From positions 1-20,673 of IMG/VR virus record IMGVR_UViG_3300032294_000784: a stretch of 20,673 nt of DNA. The stretch is one strand, 5' to 3'. Numbering within the stretch: position 1 is the stretch's first letter; each line of letters starts with the position of its first letter. The translations under genes were made by a program, and so were the position numbers. The notes beneath the pieces are model-generated. The model was not told the origin of the DNA, made no database searches, and saw nothing but the letters and a program-made list of their open reading frames with translations. Origin of the DNA: a virus. Positions 2,362 to 20,336 of the stretch are shown in pieces.

Positions 2362-4602
2362 ATGCCATTACAAAAACTTCAATTTAGACCCGGCGTAAAC
2401 CGAGAAGGTACTGATTATTCCAACGAGGGCGGTTGGTATGCTTGCGATAAGGTGCGTTTTCGTTCTGGCTTTCCTGAGAAGATTGGTGGCTGGATCCGCT
2501 TATCTAATGACTTCTTTGTCGGCGTGTGCCGATCAATGTGGAACTGGGTTACTCTAAACGGCGCTAACTTACTAGGGGTTGGCACTAACCTCAAATACTA
2601 TATTGAGCAGGGTGGCGAGTACAACGATATTACTCCCATCCGTGCTACGTTTACTACATCCTCTACCCCATCAACAGACAATATCATTTACACCACAAAC
2701 GGCTCTAATGTAGTCACGGTGAACTACGCTAACTATGGTGGGGTAAATAACGACTTTGTGACCATTAGTGGCGCTACTGCCGTAGGTGGGATACCCGCAA
2801 CCGAATTAAACGCCGAGCACCAGATTACCTACGTAGACCTTGATACCTTTACATTTACTGTAGCTACAGCCGCAACTTCTACTGTTAATGGTGGGGGTGG
2901 CACGGCTATTACGATGGCATTTCAGATTAATACGGGCTTGGATGTGTTTGTGGTTGGTACTGGCTGGGGTGCTGGTACTTGGCCTTCCTTTGTTAACACC
3001 ACACTAACAAACCCATTTACAGCGGCTAGTATTGGCGTTTCTGTTCTTACTGTTACTCAATCAGCGCATGGTTTAACGTCTGGAGACTACGTGTATTTTT
3101 CTAGCATTTCCGCTGATGCTTGCGGTATAAACCGACTAGTGTTGCAAAAATCATTTGTAGTAACCGTAACAAGCTCAAGTACTTACACTATCTCTACGGT
3201 AATTGGACAAGCTCCTGGTCCAGTAAACACCTATGTAACTACGTCAACTGCTGCTTCTGGTGGAACCGTTGTGGTATCTACGCCTGTAGCTCCTGTGCGG
3301 GGTTGGGGTGCTGCGGCTTCTGTGGGTATTGGTCAGCAGTTACGGCTTTGGACTAATGACAACTTTGGTGAAGACTTAATTATTGCCCCTCGTGGCGGTG
3401 CTATTTATTACTGGGATGCAACAACTGGGGTGTCTGTACGGGCGGTAGAATTAAGTACTTTGGCTTCAGGTGCAACGGTTCCCGGTACTGCATATACCTA
3501 CAAAGACTTTGTACCAAATCAAACAAACCAGATTATTGGTTCAGCCATTCAGCGCTTTGTTATTGCCTTTGGCTCAAATCCATACGACCCAACTGCTCCA
3601 AATAATACGTTTGACCCCTTATTAGTGCGCTGGTCCGACCAAGAAAACCCCTTCCTCTGGGTGCCAGACGCTACTAACCAGTCAGGTGAGTACCGCTTAA
3701 ACATTGGCTCAACCATTATTATGGCTCGTTCAACCCGTCAGGAGATCTTGGTTTGGTCTGATGCGGCTATTTACTCTATGCAGTATTTAGGACCACCCTA
3801 TATTTGGGGCTTCCAGTTGTTGCAGGACAACATCACAATCATGTCGCCTAATGCGGCAATAACCATTAACAACATCACCTACTGGATGGGTACGGATAAG
3901 TTCTTTATGTACTCTGGTCGTGTTGAAACCCTACCCTGCGCTATCTGGCAGTTCATTTTTGATGACATTAATAAAGACCAAGCCTTCCAAGTATTTGCTG
4001 GCTCTAACGAAGCGTACAGCGAAGTATGGTGGTTTTATTGTTCACAAAACAGCAATACAGTAGACAGCTACGTTATCTATAACTACCTTGAGCGTACATG
4101 GACTTACGGCACAATGAACCGCACCGCTTGGCTAGATTCTGGTTTGCGTCAGTACCCAATGGCAGCCGACGGCGTTAACAACCGCATTCTTTACCATGAA
4201 GCCAACGTTGATGACGTATCAGGGTTAACCCCAGTACCGATTGAAGCTTATATTCAGTCTTCTGACTTTGATATTGGTGATGGGCATAACTTCGGGTTTG
4301 TATGGCGCATACTGCCTGACTTGACCTTTAACGGCTCTAACGTAAATCAACCTCATGTCACAATGACGGTACGTCCTCGTAGAAATTCTGGTGCGCCTTA
4401 CGGCACTGCGGATAACCCACAAGTAGCTAGTACTCAGAACTACACTAGCCGTAATACATATGACGTGCAGGAGTTTGATGGACAGGTCTATACCCGCTTA
4501 CGGGCTCGCCAGATGAGCTTTAGGATTGAGTCAACTACCCTTGGTGTGGCTTGGCAATTAGGTACCCCACGAATTGATATTCGACCAGACGGCAGAAGAT
4601 GA
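2362..4602 (+). CDS. Tail hub/nozzle-type virion protein (P22 gp10-like by context)
   Basis: This large, beta-rich 746-residue protein probably plugs or extends the tail below the portal and keeps packaged DNA in place, as P22 gp10 or T7 gp12 do. The N-terminus (FRPGVNREGTDYSNEGGWY, then KVRFRSGFPEKIGGW) and the second half, with blade-like segments such as YSMQYLGPPYIWGFQ, WWFYCSQNSN and RTWTYGTMNRTAW, match the style of beta-propeller tail hub proteins of podoviruses. Residues about 114-180 and 225-300 look like two copies of one beta domain inserted in the propeller: each has an xVxTV start, a (G)D-VxxS turn, and a VTxxSSTYTIST/TYVDLDTFTFTV strand. The gene is followed by a knob protein and ejection-type proteins, the same relative place as gp10 in P22. 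The ATGA junction at 4599 couples it to the next gene. Virion role is fairly sure; the exact homology is inferred. Confidence 0.72.
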   Translation: MPLQKLQFRPGVNREGTDYSNEGGWYACDKVRFRSGFPEKIGGWIRLSNDFFVGVCRSMWNWVTLNGANLLGVGTNLKYYIEQGGEYNDITPIRATFTTSSTPSTDNIIYTTNGSNVVTVNYANYGGVNNDFVTISGATAVGGIPATELNAEHQITYVDLDTFTFTVATAATSTVNGGGGTAITMAFQINTGLDVFVVGTGWGAGTWPSFVNTTLTNPFTAASIGVSVLTVTQSAHGLTSGDYVYFSSISADACGINRLVLQKSFVVTVTSSSTYTISTVIGQAPGPVNTYVTTSTAASGGTVVVSTPVAPVRGWGAAASVGIGQQLRLWTNDNFGEDLIIAPRGGAIYYWDATTGVSVRAVELSTLASGATVPGTAYTYKDFVPNQTNQIIGSAIQRFVIAFGSNPYDPTAPNNTFDPLLVRWSDQENPFLWVPDATNQSGEYRLNIGSTIIMARSTRQEILVWSDAAIYSMQYLGPPYIWGFQLLQDNITIMSPNAAITINNITYWMGTDKFFMYSGRVETLPCAIWQFIFDDINKDQAFQVFAGSNEAYSEVWWFYCSQNSNTVDSYVIYNYLERTWTYGTMNRTAWLDSGLRQYPMAADGVNNRILYHEANVDDVSGLTPVPIEAYIQSSDFDIGDGHNFGFVWRILPDLTFNGSNVNQPHVTMTVRPRRNSGAPYGTADNPQVASTQNYTSRNTYDVQEFDGQVYTRLRARQMSFRIESTTLGVAWQLGTPRIDIRPDGRR

Positions 4603-5288: not shown

Positions 5289-5329
5289 TGATAAACTTGA
5301 CACCAAATAACCCCAAGGTACGCTTATGA
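5288..5329 (+). CDS. Possible 13-codon bridging reading frame
   Basis: ATG at 5288 overlaps the stop of the knob gene (TAATG). The frame reads MINLTPNNPKVRL and ends in TGA at 5327-5329, inside ATGA with the next start at 5326. It therefore fills the whole 37-base gap with overlaps at both ends. It may be a coupling leader rather than a functional peptide, or simple chance. It also contains the ribosome site of the following gene. Confidence 0.3.
   Translation: MINLTPNNPKVRL
5315..5318 (+). promoter_or_regulatory. Ribosome binding site of the gene at 5326
   Basis: AAGG lies seven bases before the ATG at 5326 and supports that start. Initiation here need not depend on coupling from upstream. 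Confidence 0.55.
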
Positions 5330-6888
5330 GCTTACACAATCTAGCGCATCACGTTCGAGCCAAAGGACGTGGCAAAGACACGATGCTTGTCCATATGACT
5401 CCACGAGAAGTTCAGGGGTTACAAGCGCTTGCTAAAGCTAAGGGTGGCACACTAACAATTAACCCAGAAACAGGTCTGCCAGAAGCAGGCTTTTTAGATC
5501 AGATTCTCCCAGTGGTAGCTATGGCTGCCGCTACGTACTTTACCGCTGGAGCCGCCGCTCCTTATTTAGCTAGTGCGTTAGGTAGTGCTGGTATGGCTGC
5601 AGGTACTGCTACTACTGTTGGTGGTGCTCTTGCTGGTGCCGGAGCCGGTGCTCTTTATGGTGGTATTGGTGCAGGAGTTCAGGGTGGAGACGTTGGCAAA
5701 GGCGCTTTAATGGGCGGTTTAGGTGGTGCTATCTCTGGTGGTATGGGTGCGTATGACAACGTGTTTAGCGCTGCTGGGGCTACTCCTCCTGTAGATTCAA
5801 ATTTAGTTACTGTCCCACCAGGAACAGGCGCAGAAGGGGCGGCTTCTATCCCAGCCGATCAAATAGCTAAACAACAGGCTTCAAATTTGATACCCCCAGA
5901 TAGCCCAGTTCCTCCAGAAGGGTATCGTTTTAACCCTGAAACAGGCGATGCTCTTAAAACAGCAACACAAGCTCCAAGCGGCACCGTTAACCCAACCAGC
6001 GTTTATCAAGGTTTTGGCCCAATGGGTAAAACAGCTACTCTTGCTTTGCCTGGTATTGGTGGCGCAATGGGCGAGAAACCAGATCAAGTACCCGGTCTTG
6101 AACCTTACAGCAGCCAGTCTACGTTATCCCCTGATTTCCAAGGATACACCCCAGAAAGACCAAACCCATACTATAGAGCGCAATACACACGGTATGCAGC
6201 AGGTGGCGGTTTAATGGATGCGTATCAAGCTGGTGGTCCTGTAGAGCGTATGTCTATGATGAACACGGCTATGAACCCCCAAGGCGGTTTGTACCCCCAA
6301 GGCATGATTGATAAGACCCAATATGCCACTCCTACTCAGCGCCCAGTAAGTGCTGAAATGGTATCCGAAGCTCCAGCGTATGAGCGGTCTAGCCCTATGT
6401 TGATGTCAAGCGGTGGAGATACACGAAAGAAAAAGCGTGCTTCTTTAACTGCACAAAAAACAATTAATTCCCTTGACTCATATAACGCGGCACTAGCTGA
6501 GCTTAATAATGCCCGCTACGGGGCAAACTTGTCTGGTATTAGTGCGTTAAACCCAGCTATGACTTCGCTCGGAGAGTTGCCAGTAGTAGCGGGTGCAAAA
6601 GGCGGTATTGCTGATTTGGGAGGGTACTCAGATGGTGGCAGAATGCTTAAGGGACCTGGTGATGGTATGTCTGATTCTATTCCTGCTTCTATTGGGAATA
6701 GACAGCCTGCTCGATTGGCTGATGGGGAGTTTGTGGTTCCGGCAGACGTAGTTAGTCATTTGGGTAACGGCTCTACAGATGCCGGCGCTAGAAAGCTATA
6801 CGCCATGATGGACAAGGTTCGCAAGGCTAGAACGGGTAAAAAGAAACAGGCTCCAGCAGTAAATACAGGTAGGTTTGTGCCTGCATGA
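5326..6888 (+). CDS. Gly/Ala-rich virion protein, candidate DNA-ejection protein
   Basis: This 520-residue protein has a short N-terminal region with a pattern I associate with environmental phage virion proteins (MTPREVQGLQALAKAKGG at 24-41, then TINPETGLPEAGFLDQ). Residues about 55-141 are a long Gly/Ala-rich hydrophobic stretch with glycine-zipper spacing (GGALAGAGAGALYGGIGAG), able to pack as membrane helices. The middle is Pro-rich and probably disordered. Two GG motifs follow (RYAAGGGLM at 289, YSDGGRM at 434). The C-terminus carries ARLADGEFVVPADVVSHLG, then a basic helix ending in KARTGKKKQ; similar GEFVV ends occur on phage tail and tape-measure-like proteins. It sits where P22 has its ejection-protein genes and overlaps the next gene by ATGA. 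I infer an internal particle protein that enters the host envelope with the DNA. No enzymatic motif is visible. Confidence 0.55.
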   Translation: MSLHNLAHHVRAKGRGKDTMLVHMTPREVQGLQALAKAKGGTLTINPETGLPEAGFLDQILPVVAMAAATYFTAGAAAPYLASALGSAGMAAGTATTVGGALAGAGAGALYGGIGAGVQGGDVGKGALMGGLGGAISGGMGAYDNVFSAAGATPPVDSNLVTVPPGTGAEGAASIPADQIAKQQASNLIPPDSPVPPEGYRFNPETGDALKTATQAPSGTVNPTSVYQGFGPMGKTATLALPGIGGAMGEKPDQVPGLEPYSSQSTLSPDFQGYTPERPNPYYRAQYTRYAAGGGLMDAYQAGGPVERMSMMNTAMNPQGGLYPQGMIDKTQYATPTQRPVSAEMVSEAPAYERSSPMLMSSGGDTRKKKRASLTAQKTINSLDSYNAALAELNNARYGANLSGISALNPAMTSLGELPVVAGAKGGIADLGGYSDGGRMLKGPGDGMSDSIPASIGNRQPARLADGEFVVPADVVSHLGNGSTDAGARKLYAMMDKVRKARTGKKKQAPAVNTGRFVPA

Positions 6889-7301
6889 ACTTAAAGGTTG
6901 TGCCTATTCCTACGCAGTTTGTTAACCAGATGTGGGGTCAGGCAGAAGCGCATATTAAAAGCGCTGAAGAGAAGTTTGGTGGGGCAGAGTACACAACCGA
7001 GCAGATTAAGGTATATCTAGTAACAGGGCAGTGGGTGTTGCTAGTGGCAGTAGATGAGAGTGATGTTGTACATGGTGCGGCAACTGTAAATTTTGTGAAT
7101 TACCCGAACGATAGAGTTGCTTTTGTAACTGCAATAGGTGGAAAATTAGTAACAAATCCAGATACATTTAAACAAATGTCCGACATATTTAAAGCCAACG
7201 GTGCAACCAAGATACAAGGGGTTGCAAAAGAAGCCATAGCTAGGCTGTGGAAACGCTTTGGTTTTGAAGAAAAGGCTATTTTGGTGGAAGTTAAATTATG
7301 A
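6885..7301 (+). CDS. GNAT-fold-like protein without a clear acetyl-CoA loop
   Basis: This 138-residue protein resembles small phage GNAT-type proteins. The strand order can be read as WVLLVAVDESDVVHGAATVNF (split at about 50-70), RVAFVTAIGGKLV (78-90), then a helix, a strand KIQGVA, and the C-terminal IARLWKRFGFEEKAILVEV (118-136), where the A-x-LWKRFGFE helix-turn is a common GNAT ending. The cofactor-binding signature of true acetyltransferases, R/Q-x-x-G-x-G/A, is missing: the segment after the fourth strand reads GGKLVTNPDTFKQMSD. It may have kept the fold as a structural or binding protein, or use another acyl donor geometry. It overlaps both neighbours by ATGA (6885-6888 and 7298-7301) inside the ejection-protein block, so a role in particle assembly or modification of those proteins is plausible but unproven. 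Confidence 0.55.
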   Translation: MNLKVVPIPTQFVNQMWGQAEAHIKSAEEKFGGAEYTTEQIKVYLVTGQWVLLVAVDESDVVHGAATVNFVNYPNDRVAFVTAIGGKLVTNPDTFKQMSDIFKANGATKIQGVAKEAIARLWKRFGFEEKAILVEVKL

Positions 7302-8347
7302 GCATCTTAAGATCAAAACACAGCGGTTGGACCCATGAAGGTCGACGTACTCCATATTTTGGTGGGGGCGGTGGCGGCAGTCAACCTACAACTTCTACTA
7401 CCCAGACAGCTAACATCCCTGAGTATGCTCGCCCGTATGTGGAGAACATGCTGGAGTCTACTCAGAAACAGATTTACACATATAACGACCAAGGACAACA
7501 GACTGGCTTTAGACCTTATCAGCCTTACAGCACAAACCCAAGTGACTATGTAGCGCCGTTTAGCCCCATTCAACAACAAGCTCAAGCAGGTGTTGCTAAC
7601 TTACAAACACCTGAACAATTTCAAGCAGCTACTGGATTAGCAGGTGCTTCTGGCTTAGGTTCTCTTGGTTTGGCTCAACAGGCTATGGGCGCTGGGCAAC
7701 AGTTTGCACAACAAGCTACAAACCCATATGCCGTGCAGCAATACATGTCGCCATACATGCAAAATGTGGTGGACTATCAGAAATCACAGGCGTTACGGGA
7801 TTATCAACTGGCTGCCCCAATGCGGGCTAGACAAGCCGTTGGTGCTGGTGCGTTTGGTGGTAGCCGTCAGGCAATTATGGAAGCTGAAGCCGAACGTGCT
7901 TTAGGTAGCCAATTACAAGGCATTGCCGCAACAGGTTCACAGAAAGCCTTTGAAGATGCACAACGCCAACAACAGTTTGGTGCTAACTTAGGTTTACAGG
8001 GTATCGGTGCTGGACTGCAAGGCATGGGTCAAGCTACTCAAGCCGCTGGTGCTTTAGGGCAGTTAGGTCAGCAACAGCTTGGTGCACAGACAGGCATATT
8101 GAATTTACAAAGCCAAGTGGGTGCACAGCAACAAGCGCAAGAGCAACAGAAAATTAATCAAGCTATTCAAGATTACGCTACTGCACAGCAATATCCGTAC
8201 ATGCAACTCGGCATTATGAACGCAATGCTTAGGGGTTTACCCTTACAAAGTACTACGACGCAGTCGTATCAAGCCCAGCCTAGTACTGGGCAACAGCTTT
8301 TGGGCTATGGTCTTGGCGCATTGGGCGCTTATAAAGCATTTAGTTAA
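7298..8347 (+). CDS. Gln/Ala-rich phage virion protein, candidate ejection protein
   Basis: This 349-residue protein belongs to a type common in environmental podoviruses, known to me only as virion-associated or hypothetical. After a basic start there is a Gly6 run (residues 22-27) and a Thr/Gln linker. A conserved-looking block, IPEYARPYVENMLESTQ (40-56), follows, then a Tyr/Pro-rich stretch with DYVAPFSPIQQQAQ. The centre holds MSPYMQNVVDYQ and, at about 181-205, a GAFGGSRQAIMEAEAERAL helix that I recall as recurrent in such proteins. Residues about 200-320 are Gln/Ala/Gly-rich helix with heptad-like repeats, ending in a small hydrophobic GLGALGAYKAFS. There is no enzyme motif or signal peptide. 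The position, overlapping a GNAT-like gene by ATGA and followed by two further large low-complexity genes, fits an internal ejection protein of the P22 gp7/gp20 class. This is inference from context. Confidence 0.55.
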   Translation: MSILRSKHSGWTHEGRRTPYFGGGGGGSQPTTSTTQTANIPEYARPYVENMLESTQKQIYTYNDQGQQTGFRPYQPYSTNPSDYVAPFSPIQQQAQAGVANLQTPEQFQAATGLAGASGLGSLGLAQQAMGAGQQFAQQATNPYAVQQYMSPYMQNVVDYQKSQALRDYQLAAPMRARQAVGAGAFGGSRQAIMEAEAERALGSQLQGIAATGSQKAFEDAQRQQQFGANLGLQGIGAGLQGMGQATQAAGALGQLGQQQLGAQTGILNLQSQVGAQQQAQEQQKINQAIQDYATAQQYPYMQLGIMNAMLRGLPLQSTTTQSYQAQPSTGQQLLGYGLGALGAYKAFS

Positions 8348-8356: not shown

Positions 8357-9913
8357 ATGGCTATTCCTTCCGCACCCGCAACGTCGCCAGCCATGGCTGC
8401 TGGACGTGGTTCTCCTAATCCCATGCCAGCAGGGTTATCTGCACTATTAAAGCCTGACTCTACGCCTCGTGGCATGCCATCGGGAAGCATTCAGCAGATT
8501 ATGAACACCGCTCGCAAAATGAGCGACTCGCAGTTGGCTGATGTGTTGGCTGGCAAAAGCATAGATGTTCCACAGTATGTTGCGATGACCGAAGCTATGG
8601 GACGTAAGAAGCTACGCACTGCCATGCAGGGCGCTCAAGCACAAGCCCAGATGCAACAGCCTAGCGTTAAAGATAAGTTGATGGCTGAAGAAGCCGTTAG
8701 TCCCATGATGGGACAACCCATGCAAGGGCAGATGCCTGTAATGGCTGCCGAAGGCGGTTTGGCTAGTTTGCCTGCTCCCAATATGGACACTGTTGATATG
8801 GCTGACGGTGGGATTATTGCGTTTAACGGCGAAGATAACGAGCAAATAGTTAAAGATAAAGAAGGGCGTAATTTCTTTGAGCGTCTACGAGATAGCCTAT
8901 ACACTCCTTCGGAAACGTATTTATCAGACATTATGCGGGGTAAAAAAGCTACACCACCTCCGGGCAATAAAGTCACAGAAAAAGACGTAGATTTAATGCG
9001 TCAAGGTAAAACACCGCCTGTAATGCCACAAACACCAGAGCAATTACGTGAGTTACAAAGAGAATCTACCAGAGGTATTCGTGCTCCTTTAGCTAATTTA
9101 CCTGTTGCCGCTGCTCCTGCCGCTCCTGCTGCCGCTCCTGCTGCCGCTCCTGCTGCCGCTCCTGCCGCTGTTCCCGGTGCCGGTGCCGCTGCTTCTCAAA
9201 CTAGTGGTATGAGCGGGCTTCAGTCTTATTTAGATGCAATAAAAGCAAACCAACAAGACTACTACAGCAAGCTTGAAGGTTTGGGCGCTAAACAGCGTGA
9301 AGGTCTTGCGCAGTTAAAAAGACAAGGTGGTGGCGAAGCGCTTATGAATTTAGCTCAAGGTATATTAAGCAAGCCTGGTTTAGCGGCTGGTATAGCTGCT
9401 GGTTTACCCGGAGTTACTCAAACTGCCGCAGCATCTCGTAAAGAACAACGTGCGGTTGAAGGTCTTGCTAACGACTACGACATGAACTTGGCTAAAGCTC
9501 GTGCTGCTGACGCTAAAGGTAATACAGAAGCTGCTCTCAGATATATGCAGTTGGCTGATGATGCTAAATATAAAGCCGCTGACATTAATTACAAAATGGC
9601 TTCGCTTAATAGAGATCCTGAAGCAGTTCGTTATCTTAGAGCATTAGCAAAACCCGGCGAAAGTTTGAGCGATACTTTTGCACGTGTAGAAGGAGTTAAA
9701 GGTAAAACTAATTTATACTCGATTGACAAAGCTACGGATGATTACAATAAAATTATGGAAAATCCTGTAAGCAGTGAAGCCAAAAGACTTAAAGCAGCAG
9801 GCATTACAACGCCTTTTGCGTATCAACAATATGTTTTAAACCAAGGTAGTGGTGGCGGGTTCGATCTATCCGCGGCAGCAAGAGCTGAATTAGAGCGCAG
9901 AAAAAAAGAGTAG
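8357..9913 (+). CDS. Low-complexity phage virion protein with Ala/Pro linker
   Basis: This 518-residue protein is not assigned to a named family. Residues 1-45 are Pro/Ser/Ala-rich and probably disordered. Residues about 46-90 form a small helical domain (QQIMNTARKMSDSQLADVLA, then YVAMTEAMGRKK). Met/Gln-rich sequence follows, then two GG motifs (MAAEGGLASL at 129, MADGGIIAFN at 148). An amphipathic segment with FFERLRDSLYTPSETY comes next, then an Ala/Pro linker at about 249-280 made by a 12-base tandem repeat. The last 230 residues are helical: SGMSGLQSYLDAIKANQQDYY, a GGGEALMNLAQGIL segment, and a tetratricopeptide-like ANDYDMNLAKARAADAKGN region. It may be an ejection protein or scaffold that lines the particle core. 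A strong ribosome site supports the start. The gene lies directly before the giant protein gene, separated by 41 bases. Confidence 0.55.
   Translation: MAIPSAPATSPAMAAGRGSPNPMPAGLSALLKPDSTPRGMPSGSIQQIMNTARKMSDSQLADVLAGKSIDVPQYVAMTEAMGRKKLRTAMQGAQAQAQMQQPSVKDKLMAEEAVSPMMGQPMQGQMPVMAAEGGLASLPAPNMDTVDMADGGIIAFNGEDNEQIVKDKEGRNFFERLRDSLYTPSETYLSDIMRGKKATPPPGNKVTEKDVDLMRQGKTPPVMPQTPEQLRELQRESTRGIRAPLANLPVAAAPAAPAAAPAAAPAAAPAAVPGAGAAASQTSGMSGLQSYLDAIKANQQDYYSKLEGLGAKQREGLAQLKRQGGGEALMNLAQGILSKPGLAAGIAAGLPGVTQTAAASRKEQRAVEGLANDYDMNLAKARAADAKGNTEAALRYMQLADDAKYKAADINYKMASLNRDPEAVRYLRALAKPGESLSDTFARVEGVKGKTNLYSIDKATDDYNKIMENPVSSEAKRLKAAGITTPFAYQQYVLNQGSGGGFDLSAAARAELERRKKE
9121..9168 (+). repeat. 12-base tandem repeat encoding Ala-Ala-Pro-Ala
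   Basis: Unit CGCTCCTGCTGC is present three times without change (9121-9156) and a fourth time with one mismatch (9157-9168); a degenerate copy lies just before. Being a multiple of three bases, copy-number changes would lengthen or shorten the Ala/Pro linker without breaking the frame. Confidence 0.85.
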
Positions 9914-9954: not shown

Positions 9955-12900
9955 ATGGACTTGAGCAGACTTTCAGACGACGACCTACGCGCACTAAGCG
10001 CTAATAATTTAGGGGCTATGTCGGATGCGGGTTTAAAGCTCATAGCCGCTGGTGGGCAAGAAGCTCCTAAGAAAAAAGGTATTGGCGCTGCTTTAGCTCG
10101 TGGTACTGAATCGTTTCTTGGTGCTGGACAAACATCGCTTGAGTCAATAATTGACGCTGATAAAGCTGCCAAAAAAGGTTTACGTAGAGAAGAAGCGCTG
10201 GGTGCAAAGTATGCGGATCAAATTGGTTTAGACAAACTTAAAGAAGCGTACGAAAAAAAGGGCATTACTGGGGCTATTGGAGAAGTTGGTCGCCAAGTAC
10301 CTTTAGCTTTAGCAGAACAAGCGCCTAATATTGCTGCGTCTATTGCCAGCGCTAAACTTGGTGCTGTAGGTGGTTCTGCTTTTGGTCCTGTTGGTACTGT
10401 TGTTGGTGGCGGTTTAGGTGCTTTAGCGCCTTCTGTTTTACAGCTATTTGGTTCTAACGTTCAAAGACAAGCGGCAGAGCAAGAAGCTGCCGGTAAACCT
10501 GTAGACATTAATGTAGGTAAAGCCGCTGCCGCAACCGCAGTGCAAGCCCCTCTTGATGTAGCCGCTACCTTTATCCCTCTTGGTGGACGTATTGCAGGTA
10601 AAGTATTTGGTCCAGAAGTTGAAAAATTGCTTTCCCGTGGCGGTACTAAAGCCGCTGAAAAACTAGCTCAAGAATCATTAACTAAAACTCTTGCTAAAGG
10701 TACGGCTTTTGGTGCGGCTGTTGAAGTACCAACAGAAATTACTCAGCAGATGCTTGAGCGGTATCAAGCCGGGCTACCCCTTACTACCCCCGATGCTTTA
10801 AAAGAATATGGCGAGGTTGCATATCAGTCTGGTTTACTTGGTCCTATTGGTGCTGTTGGTCGTGTATCTCAAAGAAGCGGTGCACGGGCAGAAGTAGAGC
10901 AACAAAAAGAAATTGAGCGTGTAAAAGCAGCAGAAGAGCAAGCACGCCAAGACCAAATTGTTGCTGACGAAAAAGCACAAGCAGACCTAACTAAAGCACA
11001 GGCAGAAACAGGACAGCTATTTGGTGAAGCAACTCCAGAAGCCAGCGCTTATACACCCCCTAAAGCGCCCAGTACATTAACTGTACGCGAAAGAGAATAC
11101 TCACAGATTGCAGATTTAGAAGCGCAAGCCAAAGCTACAACAGACCCTGTTGAAAAGAAAAGACTAGAAACAGAAGCGGCACGTTTAAAAGAACAGCCCA
11201 GTCAACGTGCACAGTTACTAAAAGACGCTGATACATACGACAAGCAGTTGCTAGATATTGAAAAGCAACGTGATGCTGCCGCTGAAAAGGGTGATTTTAA
11301 GCAATTTGCCACTTTGGATGCACAAGCTAGAGCGCTGGAAGAAAGTCAGAAAAAAATAAACGCAGCTTTAAAAGAAATGCCTGTTGAACTAACTCCTGAA
11401 ATGGAGATGGCTAAGCTCCGTGGTGAGCAAAAAAGTTTAATTAAGCAGTTGCAGGGCATGACAGGCCCATCTTATGACGCTAAAAAAGCCGCTACTGTAA
11501 CAGCTAAGCTAGAAGAAATTGACAAGCGCATTAACGAGATTGCTCCTGCTGCCGGTCAAATGGATTTGTTTGATGAAGCGCAGATTGGCGCTGAGCAACG
11601 TGCTGCGGTGCAACAACAGAAAGAACAACGTGCCCAAGAGCAAGAAGATTTTTTTGCTCAAACTAAAGGGCGTGAAGTAATTGATGAAGATGCAATGAAG
11701 CGGTATCAAGAAGGGCTGCAAGAATTAGAAGACGCTTACGCCGCCGGTGCTGACGAGCGTATTGTTAATCAGCTTATTGAAAAGTTACAGCAAATTGCTC
11801 AAGAAAGAGACCAGTCTTTAGCTAAAAGTCAAAGCACACCGACTGGCGAAGAAATGGAAGTTGCTGTTGAAAAAGAACAGCGGATAAAGCGGGCTATTAA
11901 AGAAGAGGAAAACAAACTCTACGACGCTAAAACTAACGAAGAAGTAGCCACAATTAGAGCTAATGTAGATGTTTTAAAACGTCGTTTAGCTAGTATGCGC
12001 ACCGAACGCGCCATACCTCAACCTGAAAATATTGAACGGCAAGCCAAAACAGATCAAACTGAAGCAGTTCGTGACGCCGTTGAAGCAACTCGTGCTATTT
12101 TGTCTGGTGATTATTTTAATAGTTTTAATGTAGATGCTGCTTCGTCGTTAAAATCAGGACTTGAAGCAGACATACAAGACGCTGGCGCTCTCTACACTAA
12201 AGCAGCAATCGCTGAGATTAACAATACAAGACAAAAGAATAAACAAACACAGTTAACTACTGATGAGGGTTTGCGTTTAGCCACGGCTATTCGTAGTCGG
12301 TTTGCATATCTTTCCAAAGATCCTACATATCTTGCTGAAAAAGTAAGAGAAAAGAACCAAAAAATATTTGAAGATTCTTTAGAAAGAATTAAAGATACGT
12401 TCCGCAAAGGTAAGTCAACAGTACAAAAATCTGTTCCTGTATTAAAACAAGAGCGTGATGTTCTTGGAATGTTACGCAAAGAAAAAGCTAAAAAAGAACC
12501 TGACCAAAAACGTATTGCGCAAATAGAAAAAGAAGTTGCCGCACGTAAGGCAGAAGAAACCAAAATTGAAGCGCAAAAAGAAAAACAAGAAACTATTGAT
12601 ATGGAGCGTTATGCTCCGTCAGGAATTAGCCCAGATCAAAAAGATTTATTTAGTGAAAAAGACCTTGAGCCAATTGCAATTGTACGGGCTACACCAGCTA
12701 ATTTTTTGCGGTTTGTAAATATTCAAGCAAACCGTTTTGAAAAAATTAAGAAGATAGCTGAAGATGCAATAAAAAAACCAATGCAAAAAGTAAAAGTTTT
12801 GTTTGGTGAAAAATATGCAAAAGAATTTGGTGCTTTAGAAAATATACGTTTGCAGCTAGAAAATGAAAATAAAAAAATAGCACCTGAACTTTATACTCCA

Positions 12901-15900
12901 AGTGAAGCAGATATTAAACGTTACTCTAAAGCGTTTATTACTGCACGTATTGAAAAAGCAAAAAATATTCGTGAAAAACATTTTGCAAATATAAAAAATT
13001 TAGAAGACAGACAAAAAGAAATATTAGAAAAACTTCGTGGTACCGAAACTACTGCGCCTGTTGAAACGCTTGCTTCTAAAGTTGCAGCGCAAAGACAATT
13101 TGTATTTGAAGTTATAAAAGCTGACGAATTTGCAAGTAACTTAAAAGAAAATGCTACTCAACTTTGGCAAGCACGTGGAAAAATTGTAAAAGCTTTAGAA
13201 AATGCTACAAAAAAAGAACGTGCAATTTATGAAAAAGCATTAGCCAAACTTGATGAACAAGCTCCACAAATTAAAAACGCTATTGATTCTTTGCATGCAA
13301 GGGCTAACGAATTACTAAATGCTAATTTAAAAACAGAAAAAGCAATACTAAAAGGACTTGAGAAAAAACTTGCAGATTCTCAAAAAGGTACTCCTGCGTC
13401 AATAAAATTTAAGAAAGAAGCAGATGAAGCAAGGGCTCGTATAGGTAAAGCCGAAGCAGAAAAAGAAAGAAACCTAGAGCGTCAAGCAAAAGAAAAGCGT
13501 GATTTAGAAGAGAAACAAGCCGCAGCACTTAAAGCGCTGCCGTCTACACGTCAAGAAATTATTGAGACAACCGCACGGCTACCGGGCGAAAAAGAAGTTG
13601 TTAAGCAAAAACGTGTTGTTAAACGTGAAACGCCTAAAACAGCAGCTGAAAAACGTGCAGAAATGATTGCGGAAGAAAAAGAAGCCGCTAAAGAACGTCA
13701 AGCTATTCGTGAGCAAGTTAAACGTGGTTTAACACCACAGCAAATGGAAACTGAGGTTAAGAAATTTAGAGCCGCAGCCGCAGAAAGCCGTAAGAAAGGC
13801 AATGAAAAACAAGCTAAGCGTCAAGAAGACGCTGCCAACGCATTAGAAAAACAGCTTAAGAGTAAGATGGCGCAAGCCCGTATGGCAATGACTGGCGCTA
13901 AAGACACAAAAACTGCGCAGCCACCTAAGATGAAAACAGGTGTAGCCAAAGAACCCAAGGCAAGAAAAAATATTGATTACGAACAAGAAGCCCTTGACGC
14001 AGGCGTTAGCCGTGAAGACTACGAGTTTGTAGAGCAAGGATTGGCTTTTGGATTTAAGGCTCGTGCCGAAAGCGCACCGGCTACAAAAGGTACTGTAACT
14101 CAGGCTGACGTTAAGAGAGAGCTTGCCAAGACCAAAATGCCTAAAGGCTTAAAGATTGTGGTGTTTGATAAGCTACCCGGCGCATTGGCTGAAAAAATTC
14201 AAATGGCGGGGCATAAGCCTAGTGAAGTGCGTGGTGGTGTTCTGCCTGACGGAACTGTGATATTTGTTGCTGAAAACCACAAAGACTTAAACGACGTCAA
14301 AGAAACGATTGCCCACGAATTGGTAGGTCACTTGGGCGTAGAAGGTCTGCTTGGCGAAGCTGGCATGAAAGCATTGGCTAAACAGATTCAGAAGACTGAC
14401 AACAGCGTGTTTGAGTTGGCTAAGAAGCTTGGAGTGTTTGATGATGTGCTAGCTACATACGCTAATGCCCGCCGTACCAAGTCTGAAGAAGCTTCCGTAA
14501 CGGATGCCGTACGTGAATTAATTGCGCACGTTGAAGAAGCAAGACCGACTAGAAGCCTGTTGGAAACAGCTAAGGCGTTTATTAAGGCTTTGGTTGGTGC
14601 TGTCCGTGCTGCGCTACGTAAGCGTGGTGTGGATTTAGAGATTTCTACCAGCGATATTTACAAGTTACTGCGTGATGCTCGTAAAAATTTTGAAGAAGGC
14701 TCGCCCGGTGCTTACGTAAATAAAGATGGCGACATTGTTTTCCGCACTGCACCTGCTCAAGCTAATGCAGGGTTTGCTGACGTGCTTAGTTCTCTTGATG
14801 GCGTTATTGCCCAACAAAAATCGTTAAAAGACAGAATTCTTGGCGAAGCTACTGGATTGATCTTTAAGACCAAATACATAGACCGTTTTGCCCCTGTGCA
14901 AGCTGTTGCTAACAAGATGCAGGATTCTTTAAAAGCAACACAGTTAATGTATTTTTTGCGCATGCACGATCAGCGTATGGCGTTTAACAGCGAGATTGCA
15001 TCGAATGGTCCGATTGATTTAAAGCCTGCCAAAGATGGCAAAGGTTTAGTAATTGAAAGCACACCCGGTGCTAACCTAAAAGATATGGCTGCCGCACTTA
15101 AAGACGCTGACGTTGGTAATACTGAAGCTACTGTGCGCATCTTTACTTTGTATTTGGCAGCTAAACGTGCCAAGCGTGTTGGTTTAGATAAATTAAATTT
15201 TGGCGGCAAAGTTACACAAAAAATGCTTAATGACGCTGATAAAGCCGTTAATGCTAGCCCCAAAACCAAAGCCGCCTTTGAAAAAGCCGCAGGAATTTAT
15301 GCTAAATATAACGAGGGCTTAATTAACTTTGCCGTTAAGACGGGCGCTTTGAGTAAAGATCTTGGTAAGCAGTTGCTAAAAGACGGCGACTACGTACCGT
15401 TCTACCGCCAGACTTCTGACGGCTCGGTGTTCCTAGATATAGGTGGTGCGCCTGCTATTAAGATTGGTAACTTAAAAGATCAGCCATATCTGCATGAGTT
15501 AGTTGGCGGTGATCAGCCGATTTTGGACGTATTTACCAGCGCATTGCAAAACACATCCATGCTCACAGACATGGCTTTACGTAACTTAGCAACTCGCAAC
15601 GTGGCGTATGCCTTGGGAGATATGGGTCTGCTTAGAGTAGGCGAAAAAGAAAAAGGTAGTGGCATCCGCAAAGGCGATGGTCCAAGAAGCCCGACAGTTA
15701 TTCGTTTCAAGATGGACGGAGAAAACTATTACGCAGATGTAAATACAGAAGCCGCAGGTGTGCCTGCTGAGTTATTGGTCAAAGGTTTAGAGGGCGTAAA
15801 TACAGCCCTGCCAAATGCCGTGAAATTAATGAATGTGCCTGCCAACTTATTGCGCAAATGGGTAACAAGAAACCCAGCCTATGCGTTGCGTCAGGTTATT

Positions 15901-17322
15901 CGTGATCCGCTTAACGCCGTGTTTGTTACTGGTGTTAACACTACGCCTATCGCTAGTTCTATGAAAGAGATTGCCAAGATGGTTCAAGGCAAGAGCGAGG
16001 GAGAGCCATTACTTCAGCGTAGGGGTGTTTTAGGTGGGCAGGTTTTGACTGGCACCGCTGAAGATATGGGCAAGATCTTGCGTGATGTAACCGCAGGTAA
16101 GAAGGGTTGGGATTATCAGATGGCTAGGCTAGATTCGCTAGCTATTAAGGGTGATGCCGCTACCCGTGTTGTGATGTACAACAACTTTATTAAGCAGGGC
16201 TTGTCTGAGATGGAAGCTACGTTGGCTACGCTCGAAGCCATGAACTTTAGTAAGCGGGGTATATCGCCTAGCTTGTTTGCTCTGTCTACGATGGTGCCGT
16301 TCATGAACGCACAGATCCAAGGTTTAAACGTTATTTATCAAGCGTTTACCGGACAGATGCCGTTTAACGAGAAGCTGAAAGTTAAACAAAAGTTATATCA
16401 ACGTGCAGCTATGATGGTCGGCTTTACCATGCTGTATGCGTCGCTCATGCAAGATGACGAGTCATATCAAAACGCTAACGACGACGAGAAATACAACAAC
16501 TGGTTTATGCCTAATCCGTTTGGCGATGAGTACATTAAAGTGCCTATCCCATTTGAAATTGGTTTCTTATTCAAGGCTGTGCCTGAAGCGCTTGTTAATA
16601 CTGCGTTTGGCGATGAGAAAGCCCGTGATACTTTAACTGCTCTAGGTAAGATGGCGTACAACTCTATGCCAATAAGTATGCCCCAAGGTATTAAACCAGC
16701 GCTTGAGACAGCGATTAACTACTCGTTCTTTACTGGGCGCCCAATCGAGTCTGAAAGATTACAACGTTACGAACCGGGCGAGCGCTATACCGAGAGAACT
16801 GGTGAGTTGGCTAAATTAGTAGGTGGTGCTCTCAATATCTCTCCAGTTAAAATTGAGTACTTGATCCGTGGATATACAGGTAGCTTGCCGTTAGCCATAG
16901 GTTCTTTAGCTAACCCCGTTTTGCGTAGTGGTGATACTGGCGAACAACCTGATACTCGTGGTTTAGTCAGTTCTGAAACTCCTTTAATTGGCTCGTTCTT
17001 TCAACCTAAAGATGCCGGTGGTTTGATTAACAAGGCATACAGAGATATGGAAGAGGTTGTTCAGGCTAAAGAAACTTACAAAAAAATGGTTAGCGAAAAC
17101 CGTGAAAGAGAAGCTGAAGACTATCTTGAAGCCAATGCAGACATCATAGCCATGAGTTCTTTAGCCGGTAAGTTCCGTCAACAAATGGGTAAATTAACCC
17201 AACAAGAACGGGCTATCAGGTCAGACAGCGGCGCAACGGGAGCAGAAAAACGTGAAGCGCTAGATGAAATACGTCAAGCCAAAATTGAACTTGCCAAGAT
17301 GTTCTCTAGCGCACGCGAGTAA
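9955..17322 (+). CDS. Giant 2455-residue polyvalent/ejection protein with zincin-like and LPD38-like domains
   Basis: This is the largest gene here, in the slot of the biggest ejection protein (P22 gp16 or T7 gp16 position). Residues 1-40 hold a short helix (LSRLSDDDLRALSANNLG). Residues 50-300 are hydrophobic and Gly-rich and may cross membranes (VGGSAFGPVGTVVGGGLGAL). Residues about 300-690 and 790-1345 are charged coiled coil, split by a small globular island (about 690-790). Residues about 1395-1580 look like the metallopeptidase domain of large phage polyvalent proteins: ETIAHELVGHLG with H1454, E1455 and H1459, and a possible third ligand E1521 in AVRELIAHVEE. Residues about 1620-2250 resemble LPD38 of those proteins (RKWVTRNPAYALRQVIRDPL near 1965, VPFMNAQIQGL near 2112, FMPNPFGDEYIKVPIPFEIG). 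Domain names come from recalled patterns. I infer a packaged protein delivered with the DNA. The ribosome site is weak. Confidence 0.72.
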   Translation: MDLSRLSDDDLRALSANNLGAMSDAGLKLIAAGGQEAPKKKGIGAALARGTESFLGAGQTSLESIIDADKAAKKGLRREEALGAKYADQIGLDKLKEAYEKKGITGAIGEVGRQVPLALAEQAPNIAASIASAKLGAVGGSAFGPVGTVVGGGLGALAPSVLQLFGSNVQRQAAEQEAAGKPVDINVGKAAAATAVQAPLDVAATFIPLGGRIAGKVFGPEVEKLLSRGGTKAAEKLAQESLTKTLAKGTAFGAAVEVPTEITQQMLERYQAGLPLTTPDALKEYGEVAYQSGLLGPIGAVGRVSQRSGARAEVEQQKEIERVKAAEEQARQDQIVADEKAQADLTKAQAETGQLFGEATPEASAYTPPKAPSTLTVREREYSQIADLEAQAKATTDPVEKKRLETEAARLKEQPSQRAQLLKDADTYDKQLLDIEKQRDAAAEKGDFKQFATLDAQARALEESQKKINAALKEMPVELTPEMEMAKLRGEQKSLIKQLQGMTGPSYDAKKAATVTAKLEEIDKRINEIAPAAGQMDLFDEAQIGAEQRAAVQQQKEQRAQEQEDFFAQTKGREVIDEDAMKRYQEGLQELEDAYAAGADERIVNQLIEKLQQIAQERDQSLAKSQSTPTGEEMEVAVEKEQRIKRAIKEEENKLYDAKTNEEVATIRANVDVLKRRLASMRTERAIPQPENIERQAKTDQTEAVRDAVEATRAILSGDYFNSFNVDAASSLKSGLEADIQDAGALYTKAAIAEINNTRQKNKQTQLTTDEGLRLATAIRSRFAYLSKDPTYLAEKVREKNQKIFEDSLERIKDTFRKGKSTVQKSVPVLKQERDVLGMLRKEKAKKEPDQKRIAQIEKEVAARKAEETKIEAQKEKQETIDMERYAPSGISPDQKDLFSEKDLEPIAIVRATPANFLRFVNIQANRFEKIKKIAEDAIKKPMQKVKVLFGEKYAKEFGALENIRLQLENENKKIAPELYTPSEADIKRYSKAFITARIEKAKNIREKHFANIKNLEDRQKEILEKLRGTETTAPVETLASKVAAQRQFVFEVIKADEFASNLKENATQLWQARGKIVKALENATKKERAIYEKALAKLDEQAPQIKNAIDSLHARANELLNANLKTEKAILKGLEKKLADSQKGTPASIKFKKEADEARARIGKAEAEKERNLERQAKEKRDLEEKQAAALKALPSTRQEIIETTARLPGEKEVVKQKRVVKRETPKTAAEKRAEMIAEEKEAAKERQAIREQVKRGLTPQQMETEVKKFRAAAAESRKKGNEKQAKRQEDAANALEKQLKSKMAQARMAMTGAKDTKTAQPPKMKTGVAKEPKARKNIDYEQEALDAGVSREDYEFVEQGLAFGFKARAESAPATKGTVTQADVKRELAKTKMPKGLKIVVFDKLPGALAEKIQMAGHKPSEVRGGVLPDGTVIFVAENHKDLNDVKETIAHELVGHLGVEGLLGEAGMKALAKQIQKTDNSVFELAKKLGVFDDVLATYANARRTKSEEASVTDAVRELIAHVEEARPTRSLLETAKAFIKALVGAVRAALRKRGVDLEISTSDIYKLLRDARKNFEEGSPGAYVNKDGDIVFRTAPAQANAGFADVLSSLDGVIAQQKSLKDRILGEATGLIFKTKYIDRFAPVQAVANKMQDSLKATQLMYFLRMHDQRMAFNSEIASNGPIDLKPAKDGKGLVIESTPGANLKDMAAALKDADVGNTEATVRIFTLYLAAKRAKRVGLDKLNFGGKVTQKMLNDADKAVNASPKTKAAFEKAAGIYAKYNEGLINFAVKTGALSKDLGKQLLKDGDYVPFYRQTSDGSVFLDIGGAPAIKIGNLKDQPYLHELVGGDQPILDVFTSALQNTSMLTDMALRNLATRNVAYALGDMGLLRVGEKEKGSGIRKGDGPRSPTVIRFKMDGENYYADVNTEAAGVPAELLVKGLEGVNTALPNAVKLMNVPANLLRKWVTRNPAYALRQVIRDPLNAVFVTGVNTTPIASSMKEIAKMVQGKSEGEPLLQRRGVLGGQVLTGTAEDMGKILRDVTAGKKGWDYQMARLDSLAIKGDAATRVVMYNNFIKQGLSEMEATLATLEAMNFSKRGISPSLFALSTMVPFMNAQIQGLNVIYQAFTGQMPFNEKLKVKQKLYQRAAMMVGFTMLYASLMQDDESYQNANDDEKYNNWFMPNPFGDEYIKVPIPFEIGFLFKAVPEALVNTAFGDEKARDTLTALGKMAYNSMPISMPQGIKPALETAINYSFFTGRPIESERLQRYEPGERYTERTGELAKLVGGALNISPVKIEYLIRGYTGSLPLAIGSLANPVLRSGDTGEQPDTRGLVSSETPLIGSFFQPKDAGGLINKAYRDMEEVVQAKETYKKMVSENREREAEDYLEANADIIAMSSLAGKFRQQMGKLTQQERAIRSDSGATGAEKREALDEIRQAKIELAKMFSSARE

Positions 17323-17483
17323 ACAGTACGCCAATCTTACCCCCAAACGTACCAAACTCTGCCTTACCAAGAACGCCGTGATGTATAGCGGCGCTGATGC
17401 CTGTCTCTTTAACTTCTTGTAGCTTTAGAGTAGGCACAAAAAAAGCCCCCTTGACGGGGGTGTTAACCCAAGGATAGTGCACT
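17323..17483. other. Convergent intergenic region
   Basis: This 161-base gap separates the 3' ends of the late unit and the leftward replication unit. It holds the leftward terminator (17438-17461). No intrinsic terminator for the rightward unit is visible: a 5-base stem, CGCCG/CGGCG at 17374-17378 and 17389-17393, has a 10-base loop and no T-run. On the minus strand the part from 17437 down to 17306 stays open and reads with protein-like composition (see findings). Confidence 0.6.
17438..17461 (-). terminator. Intrinsic terminator of the leftward primase unit
   Basis: Read on the minus strand, CCCCC and GGGGG form a five-pair stem around the loop GTCAA, followed by CTTTTTTT (seven T). It lies about 22 bases past the primase stop. 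On the plus strand the same stem is preceded by the A-run and followed by GTTAACCC, so it should act in the leftward direction only. Confidence 0.9.
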
Positions 17484-20336
17484 TTAATTTTCCGCAATGT
17501 CTTCTTCAGATACAGGACGAGTGATCTGCATAACGTTAACCCGCATGGTAGGACCACGAGTTTTGGAAAGCATGTCCTTACGAAGGTAGTTTATTTTGTA
17601 GTTTGGCAGTAACTCAAGCCCTTCCTTAAAGTCTTTGTAGCCATAACTCATGGTTACGCAATGCGCTTTAAGCAGTTGCTCTTCAATGTAATACTCCACA
17701 TGTCCGGGCGTAAACCCATGCTCAACACGCCCTGCTACGTCAGATCGGGTAAGCGACTGATCAATCATGCCACTACCGCCTAGCGTTGCGTCGATGGTGC
17801 CGTTAACTGCCTTGACTACCACAAACTTACCAAAATACTCACGGGTATATGCGTTCAATACGTCTTCGGGGGTACGCTTACTGCCATGAATAATGCCACG
17901 AGCGCTGTATACCATGAGGCGCAGAACATCAATAATTGGACCCTTGGGGATGTCGATTAGGTTAGCGTGGTCTTTGCCAAGCAGTTGTAGTATGGTCACG
18001 ATGCACGCATTACCGGCAGTCCAGTAGCGCTCGTCAGCATTGGCTTCAAATTCAACCTTCAAGCGTTCTTGGTTTTCTTTAACAAGTTTCTTGGCTACGT
18101 CATGGTTCTTTACCAACCAACGAATTAATTCCTGACCAACGACACCGAAGTTTTCTTTTAGTAAGCCAAGGGTAGATTCTTCTTCGGGAGACCATTTCAG
18201 CTTCTTGCTCAGTTGCAACTCAAGCAGACGGAACATTTCACCCTGAGACGCATGCTTACGAGCGCCTGATAAGAAGTCCATAACGTGTGTATTGGACGAG
18301 AGTAAAACCAGTAACTTCCATGTCGAGGTGTTGATGCGTTCCTCGTTGGTGCCCTGCTTCATGCGGTCTTTGCCTTTACCCTGCGTTAAATCAAGCAAGA
18401 ACTCAGGCAACCACTCAAAGTCCTCACGGCTCTTACTGGTGGTTTCATCAATAATAAACGGCAGACTGTTAAGTAAACCCTGTCTCTGTTGCGATGCAAC
18501 GATAGACGTACTCTGTGTTACACGATAGCCTTCGGGGTGTCCAAAGAAACTAGCCGCTAACTCAAGCGACAACGACTTACCTGTGCCTGACTCAGATGAA
18601 CCTAGGTGGTATACACAGCCGTTGAATTTAGTAAAGTTCATGAGCAACGATGCCGGTCCAACCAAAGCCATTGCCAACACCTGCCACTCTTGACGAGCAA
18701 TAAGCATATTGAAGACCTTGCGCCAGTTGTCTAGCGTGCCGGTAGGTTTGGTCGAGTAGTTGATGTTATCAAGCGCAGGGGTTGGTACGTACACTTCCCT
18801 GCTATCAGGGTAAAACACATGGCTGTTGTATACAAACGACTTGTCATCCTGCCAACCACAGTTATTCGGTACTTTAATAGCACGCTTATTAGCACTAACA
18901 AACTCTACGCAACCACGCACATACTCAAACAAGTTCTTGTCGTTACCTGAACCATATGCTGCAATGATGTTTTGATTGGCTAGCGCTTTGACTGTCTCGT
19001 CTTTACTGACAATGGATTTTTGTGGAATCAGTACGTCAACCGCACCTTCAGGTCTAAACGCCATGAGGTGAACTAAGTGGTCGCCGTTGCTATTAAGGAT
19101 GTCAACCGCAAACAAGTCGTAAGACAACAACATAACTTGCTTACGGGTTTTCTTGCCGTCCTCGTCATCCATCAACCTATCCATAAAGATACCGCCGTTA
19201 GAGCCGTAGCTATATCCCTTGGGTGGGGTTGGGCGGGTAACGGTTTTTTGTGGTGCTTCTGGCGTGGAGTTTTCTGTCTCTATTACAACTTCTTTTGGAG
19301 CGTTGTCGACCTTGATCTCCCGACCCAAGGCTAGTGGGTTGGTAATCTTGCCTTTGTGTGGGCATTTATCGCACACTCCTGGATTGGTCTCATCTAGTTT
19401 TAGGCAGGCATAAGGACCTTTAATCGCTCTCCATTTGCTGTTGTGGCGGTCTGTATCGTAAGGATGTAGCGCAGATAACGCCAAGCCCTCTTCAATGCCG
19501 TCATCACAGAATTTAGCTATGCTGAGGATGCCCCGCCACAAAGGCTCCATGCCGTCCTTACTAGCGTTCTCACGATAGTAGTTAATCTGCCCACACTTAT
19601 CGCCGATAGTTTTAAAGTATGTAACGCTGTTTTCTATTAGCTTGACGCTATTGGCTGTTGGAGCGGCTTTGGGGCGTTTTCCGGGGATTTGCAACGGCGG
19701 TACTGCTTCGTATGCCTCTTCGCCAATCGCTTCTTTAAGATGGTTTGCTAGCGCCTCAAAGTCAAAAATATCGCCCTCTGCCTTGAGGATTACCTTGCGT
19801 GGCTTCTCTTGCTTGTAGTTGTGGGTGTCAGGTACACGAAGCACCCTAGCCGCATCACCTGTAACTGAAGCGTCGATATTAAAACCTAACTTCTTGCATA
19901 GCCTTTTTAAGTTCTCTGCAACAGGTTTCCAAGTGGCAATATCTACTTCTTCAGCAAACGGGAAATACACATGCAACCCACCACCGCTCGTTACCACCCA
20001 AGGCGAACCTAGGTCAGTTAAGTTAGTGTCGGTTAAGAACTTAGCTAGTGCGTTAACAGCGTCTACTTTTTTCTCGTAGTCCTTGCCTGCTCCACAATCA
20101 ATATCCAAGAACAAGGATTTCATTTTTACTGCGTGTTCAGCTTTGCGCTCGCTAGCCCCAAACGTAGCCAATGCAAAGAAAGCGTTGTAGCCCTTTGCAT
20201 CAAACGCCATAGCGGCGTCGTACAACTCGTTTATGGAGTCAACGAATACATGCTCTCTTTTTGCTGTGCTAATTTCAACGGTGCAGTATTTACCCGAAGT
20301 CGGTAGCACAGTCGCTAGGAATTCCTGCGACGTCAT
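17484..20336 (-). CDS. AEP primase fused to DUF927-like helicase (replication primase-helicase)
   Basis: This 950-residue protein probably primes and unwinds phage DNA. Residues 1-200 are an archaeo-eukaryotic primase (AEP/PrimPol-type) domain: FLDID gives D78 and D80, TSGGGLHVYF gives H122, D155 is a likely third acidic ligand, and ARVLRVPDTHNYK (163-175) is the usual sugar/template motif. A Cys/His cluster, C311, C322, C325 and H327, could hold zinc. Residues about 380-530 look like the DUF927 N-terminal part (GWQDDKSFVY). Residues about 550-720 form an ATPase: a Walker A-type loop, GSSESGTGKS (579-588), Walker B IIDE with D630-E631, a sensor-type SSNTH at 680-684, and R703 as arginine-finger candidate. 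The loop has Ser instead of the usual first Gly/Ala. AAAGG six bases upstream supports the start. It is the last gene of a leftward operon and ends before a strong terminator. Confidence 0.88.
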   Translation of the reverse strand: MTSQEFLATVLPTSGKYCTVEISTAKREHVFVDSINELYDAAMAFDAKGYNAFFALATFGASERKAEHAVKMKSLFLDIDCGAGKDYEKKVDAVNALAKFLTDTNLTDLGSPWVVTSGGGLHVYFPFAEEVDIATWKPVAENLKRLCKKLGFNIDASVTGDAARVLRVPDTHNYKQEKPRKVILKAEGDIFDFEALANHLKEAIGEEAYEAVPPLQIPGKRPKAAPTANSVKLIENSVTYFKTIGDKCGQINYYRENASKDGMEPLWRGILSIAKFCDDGIEEGLALSALHPYDTDRHNSKWRAIKGPYACLKLDETNPGVCDKCPHKGKITNPLALGREIKVDNAPKEVVIETENSTPEAPQKTVTRPTPPKGYSYGSNGGIFMDRLMDDEDGKKTRKQVMLLSYDLFAVDILNSNGDHLVHLMAFRPEGAVDVLIPQKSIVSKDETVKALANQNIIAAYGSGNDKNLFEYVRGCVEFVSANKRAIKVPNNCGWQDDKSFVYNSHVFYPDSREVYVPTPALDNINYSTKPTGTLDNWRKVFNMLIARQEWQVLAMALVGPASLLMNFTKFNGCVYHLGSSESGTGKSLSLELAASFFGHPEGYRVTQSTSIVASQQRQGLLNSLPFIIDETTSKSREDFEWLPEFLLDLTQGKGKDRMKQGTNEERINTSTWKLLVLLSSNTHVMDFLSGARKHASQGEMFRLLELQLSKKLKWSPEEESTLGLLKENFGVVGQELIRWLVKNHDVAKKLVKENQERLKVEFEANADERYWTAGNACIVTILQLLGKDHANLIDIPKGPIIDVLRLMVYSARGIIHGSKRTPEDVLNAYTREYFGKFVVVKAVNGTIDATLGGSGMIDQSLTRSDVAGRVEHGFTPGHVEYYIEEQLLKAHCVTMSYGYKDFKEGLELLPNYKINYLRKDMLSKTRGPTMRVNVMQITRPVSEEDIAEN

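Follow-up and report, generated by a model that had tools for sequence, protein, structure and literature searches.

A cysteine-free giant with a zincin-like domain and an LPD38 end, probably the largest ejected protein of a podovirus-type phage

It is difficult to tell which of its proteins a phage delivers into the cell, and the question is raised here by a single very large late gene in a virus record of 20,673 bases, all of which was analysed and is called the window below. The gene lies at 9955..17322 on the plus strand, with its ATG at 9955 and its stop at 17322, and reads uninterrupted for 2455 residues, the coordinates, frame and length in an earlier note on this DNA proving exact. We propose that, among the ejected internal proteins of a podovirus-type phage, this giant is probably the largest, a vRNAP-like carrier in which the protease/LPD38 end stays constant and the cargo varies. 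Our sequence test for entry into the cell is the absence of cysteine, a signature published for N4-like vRNAPs and extended here to the LPD38 giants and their neighbouring genes.

The layout of the genome is of the podovirus type, as known here from gene content alone. Upstream of the giant are genes for a tail collar fibre, a lysozyme and a virion structural protein in the tail-tube-B position (2362..4602, plus strand; phrog_3287), and an ejection block of four smaller cysteine-free genes on the same strand. These encode proteins of 520 aa (5326..6888), 138 aa (6885..7301; acetyltransferase-like by position only), 349 aa (7298..8347; PHROG 'DNA ejection protein', phrog_4287, E 1.2e-13) and 518 aa (8357..9913). 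The giant is last in the late operon, directly after these ejection-type genes, and so occupies the place of podovirus ejection proteins behind the tube and ejection genes, as the earlier note had it. The cysteine-free gene block was found in four large relative contigs, and a 68 kb relative contig joins the same ejection block to terminase, portal and major head protein. The pelagiphage Lederberg has a matching order of tail tubular protein B, acetyltransferase, internal virion protein and LPD38 giant. The 138-aa gene stands at the place of Lederberg's putative acetyltransferase and its product has the same length as T7 gp13, to which it showed no similarity when the two were compared. The 518-aa protein lacks Cys, His and Trp, and 14 members of its family are also cysteine-free. 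A convergent neighbour on the minus strand, a primase-helicase (17484..20336), contains 13 cysteines in contrast to the giant, and a terminator-like hairpin (17446-17460, minus strand) lies between the two genes.

The giant has no cysteine in 2455 residues. Its relatives were gathered from viral contigs, and 36 family members, the window included and some of them fragments or close copies, contain a single cysteine among 94,685 residues; that one (in L026) lies ahead of the first Met of its ORF. With annotated starts, the giants of D274, PTXU04, phiARM81mr, BA3, Palmer, HTVC010P and Pag-Yong1 have none, and neither do those of VvAW1 (5' end cut), X14, 1.232.O, CF418P1, K249 and Lederberg in 16,009 residues. 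Some of the cysteine-free annotated giants carry enzyme cargo, either helicase and methylase or pyrophosphatase. Across the four relative contigs cysteine runs at a background of 9-12 per 1000 residues, and the chance of finding none in 2455 is 2e-11 at 10 per 1000 and 6e-4 at a low 3 per 1000, figures that apply to one protein only because the relatives are not independent. A comparison of 63 ORF families, each 450 aa or longer, showed those free or nearly free of cysteine to be ejection proteins or their neighbours, together with three proteins of D274 and 1.232.O, and none of the packaging, portal or replication families was cysteine-free. Cysteine is also absent from N4 gp50, gp51 and gp52, T7 gp15 and gp16, and P22 gp7, gp16 and gp20; T7 gp14 has one, and nine occur in P1 DarB, a long-tailed phage's polyvalent protein. 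The trait is one that we found to be shared, not a formal definition of podovirus ejection proteins, and the giant possesses it. As the giant lacks cysteine like the threaded proteins of T7, P22 and N4, its composition supports ejection into the host cell at infection, and the passage into the cell proposed in the earlier note thereby gains independent support.

That N4-like vRNAPs lack cysteine has been published, with passage through the tail and periplasm as the likely reason (PMC3715699, PMC3915230, PMC2784036). For LPD38 giants we found no published statement in one open-access library, and Iyer et al. make no mention of cysteine (PMC5512222), so what is new here is its absence from these giants and their neighbouring genes. 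Downstream of the D274 and 1.232.O giants are cysteine-free proteins of 542, 1051 and 707 aa (L005 14732-19515; L186 12952-15075), which may be ejected as well or may be cases where the signature does not hold.

Along the chain, residues 1-340 (9955..10974; this and all following features on the plus strand) form an N-terminal region that is semi-conserved among relatives, some with alternative starts. It is rich in G and A and has a single hydrophobic stretch, the most hydrophobic of the protein, at residues 146-164 (10390..10446). The variable middle, about residues 340-1390 (10972..14124), is charged, poor in G and P and corresponds to the family's cargo slot; no enzyme was recognised there in the window's giant. 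Heptad periodicity exceeded that of shuffles only at about residues 1051-1200, so the coiled coil of the earlier note has partial support, confined to that segment, the rest of the charged middle not rising above shuffles. A metallopeptidase-like cassette (about residues 1375-1605; 14077..14769) is followed by a conserved C-terminal region (residues 1600-2455; 14752..17319).

The LPD38 domain, a polyvalent-associated domain of phage-type polyvalent proteins, occupies residues 2168-2330 (16456..16944), and the Pfam check (PF18857, E 1.5e-31, its 110.4 bits lying far above the cut-off of 27) confirmed the LPD38-like end read from the sequence earlier. PHROG families of unknown function cover residues 1782-2448, and tblastn returned 55 phage records, none reaching 30% identity and each aligned only within the last ~735 residues. 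No relative was found in the bacterial genomes searched or in sequence searches of the PDB, and the plasmids searched gave a single distant LPD38 protein. Profile comparison of the LPD38 region with the N4 C2 region and T7 gp16 gave no match. Palmer and Lederberg have LPD38 and lack the HEXXXH motif. LPD38 itself may be a packaging or regulatory module.

Is the middle domain a metallopeptidase, as had been suggested? A classical zincin is defined by HEXXH and a third ligand; the giant has the variant HEXXXH, as HELVGH at residues 1454-1459 (14314..14331), and a candidate third metal ligand in Glu1521 (14515..14517). The motif arises in 0.2% of shuffles of the giant, and His1454, Glu1455, His1459 and Glu1521, along with His1442, are invariant in all 25 aligned family members. 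Iyer et al. reported the HEXXXH variant for one set of polyvalent MPTases (PMC5512222). Among other phages it occurs in D274, PTXU04, phiARM81mr, K249 and CF418P1, with HEXXH in BA3, X14 and VvAW1, in each case roughly 1,000-1,250 aa before the C terminus. Profile comparison with the C-terminal part of the N4 vRNAP gave the HExxH domain as the sole match (score 48.6, E 3.9e-4), aligning motif and third ligand (HELVGH over HELVH, RELIAH over NEFMAW); shuffled controls reached at most 27.9 and reversed ones 22-25, about half the real score.

Two structure models were of moderate confidence (pLDDT 70 and 64). In the AlphaFold model of the domain (pLDDT 70) the order is helix-strand-helix-strand-strand-motif helix-Glu helix, that of the described zincin core, which counts for a zincin relationship. 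The structure prediction called for earlier fits the core order. Fold searches of the PDB with the two models, by Foldseek for the domain model, found no match, to a solved zincin or otherwise. Against viral models, Foldseek with the domain model retrieved large phage polyvalent-type proteins at E 1e-5 to 1e-3. A Pfam scan of the domain in the 25 family members detected no zincin, the weak matches including DUF2268 and Peptidase_M76 (E 0.03-0.06). The invariant residues, the N4 profile match and the Foldseek hits agree with the zincin-like MPTase of phage-type polyvalent proteins, and the metallopeptidase-like reading of the middle is supported. We take the domain to be a zincin relative; whether it would be catalytic is uncertain because the HEXXXH spacing is atypical.

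The family comparison points to a fixed back and an exchangeable front. From the motif to the C terminus the distance is 1001-1033 aa (sd 8.5, 35 members), and from the N terminus to the motif 953-2207 aa (sd 287, 27 members). The last ~1,070 residues can be aligned in all members while the front is mosaic, and Pfam, run on the fronts of 20 giants, found no domain common to more than two. On these alignments the protease-like/LPD38 back end is constant and the front parts and cargo appear interchangeable. Relatives of the window's giant, in which one putative enzyme domain was seen, carry more, namely DarB-like helicase-methylase modules or a pyrophosphatase. The cassette also seems to have moved by itself: in the sister phage L013 the giant shares 95-100% identity with that of the window outside residues 1301-1600 and 71-83% inside, and the breaks in identity coincide with the cassette borders. 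We read that as exchange of the peptidase cassette alone, as a unit, between near-identical phages, its edges marking a natural domain border.

These features place the giant as a further phage polyvalent/ejection-type protein, a kind already known. A close parallel in layout is N4 vRNAP gp50, likewise huge and cysteine-free, with a HExxH domain that leads into a long helical C-terminal region, and encoded with other cysteine-free ejection proteins. In N4 the domain called C1 bears the HExxH motif of zincins and precedes a helical C2 of ~110 kDa (PMC12633501). Unlike the giant, gp50 has an RNA polymerase in the cargo slot and a canonical HEXXH, and its C2 is not detectably related; no RNA polymerase domain was found in the giant by Pfam or PHROG. 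A relationship of the giant's N terminus to the N4 NTD was considered on profile comparison and is unconvincing (E 0.008, probability 5%). The N4 vRNAP is already an ejected giant with a protease-like domain, so that part of the arrangement called striking in the earlier note has a precedent. PTXU04 gp25, a putative polyvalent protein of an Escherichia phage (2197 aa), shares the LPD38-type C terminus, the lack of cysteine, HEXXXH ~1,000 aa ahead of the C terminus and a position after ejection genes, with ~25% identity in the C-terminal part only. The phage-type polyvalent proteins of Iyer et al. (PMC5512222) share a zincin-like MPTase, LPD38 and a late-gene context, but the giant has only one recognised putative enzyme domain.

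How would such a protein work? Built on the plan of the N4 vRNAP, with a front and cargo that vary, then a zincin-like domain and a helical LPD38 end that stays constant, the whole giant would be packaged in the head and would pass down the tail unfolded along with the smaller cysteine-free ejection proteins. It would then refold at, across, inside or beyond the inner membrane, and the smaller proteins would act as parts of the channel. Most speculatively, the zincin-like domain may cut the giant itself or free held cargo after entry. Of particle proteins in PTXU04, only gp7, gp10, gp11 and gp12 were identified from gel bands (PMC6563267), and gp25 was not among them, as could happen to a giant of low copy number; for phiARM81mr no proteomics paper was found.

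The chain might instead conduct the DNA itself, as a T7 gp16-like internal core protein that spans the envelope and forms the channel. The giant resembles gp16 in being the last and largest of the ejection block, the largest internal protein and free of cysteine, and it has a hydrophobic N-terminal stretch. However, gp16 is about half as long, the profile comparison gave no match (E 0.44), and its lytic transglycosylase domain was not found in the giant by Pfam. N4-type phages, moreover, form their pores from the smaller gp51 and gp52 (PMC12633501), and the giant here has four smaller cysteine-free genes ahead of it. These points count against the DNA-lining chain of the earlier note, and we regard this reading as quite unlikely. 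More doubtful still, in our view, is a protease that works in the producing cell while heads mature, as has been suggested for P1 DdrB, with the chain only partly packaged. DdrB is processed before packaging (PMC5512222), but the N4 vRNAP is packaged unprocessed (PMC5512222) and the whole chain of the giant excludes cysteine, as if all of it travels.

The giant might also be a polyvalent protein that mainly disarms host defences, through its protease and helical middle. In favour of this, LPD38 and such MPTases are typical of phage polyvalent proteins, DarB-like methylase-helicase modules occur in relatives and the MPTase cassette is swapped between near-identical phages, as a target-specific part might be. 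Against this, Pfam and PADLOC detected no known anti-defence domain in the window's giant, and PTXU04 gp25 is required for infecting the laboratory strain BL21. In a library assayed in BL21, gp25 scored as a Fit gene whose knock-down strongly reduced plating (PMC11879866); it also appears in a list of genes that, when expressed, were toxic or disturbed infection (PMC11879866). The need for gp25 in BL21 suggests that a basic part in infection is more probable than action against defences alone, and both may hold. The earlier proposal of action on host defences is therefore weakened, and as the main function we judge it unlikely.

Returning to the ejected carrier, it is about an even question whether short-tailed phages use the zincin-like and LPD38 C-terminal module as a general delivery chassis. 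The module would be analogous to the back half of the N4 vRNAP, bearing swappable cargo (helical rods, methylase-helicase or pyrophosphatase) all purged of cysteine. If true, freedom from cysteine would reveal, with nothing but the sequence, which of a phage's proteins enter the cell, and the signature is checkable in phages already cultured. In public records the LPD38 giants are labelled methylase, portal, RelA/SpoT, DarB-like or hypothetical protein, and a constant back with a variable front helps to explain such variation, whether each label follows the cargo or is an error.
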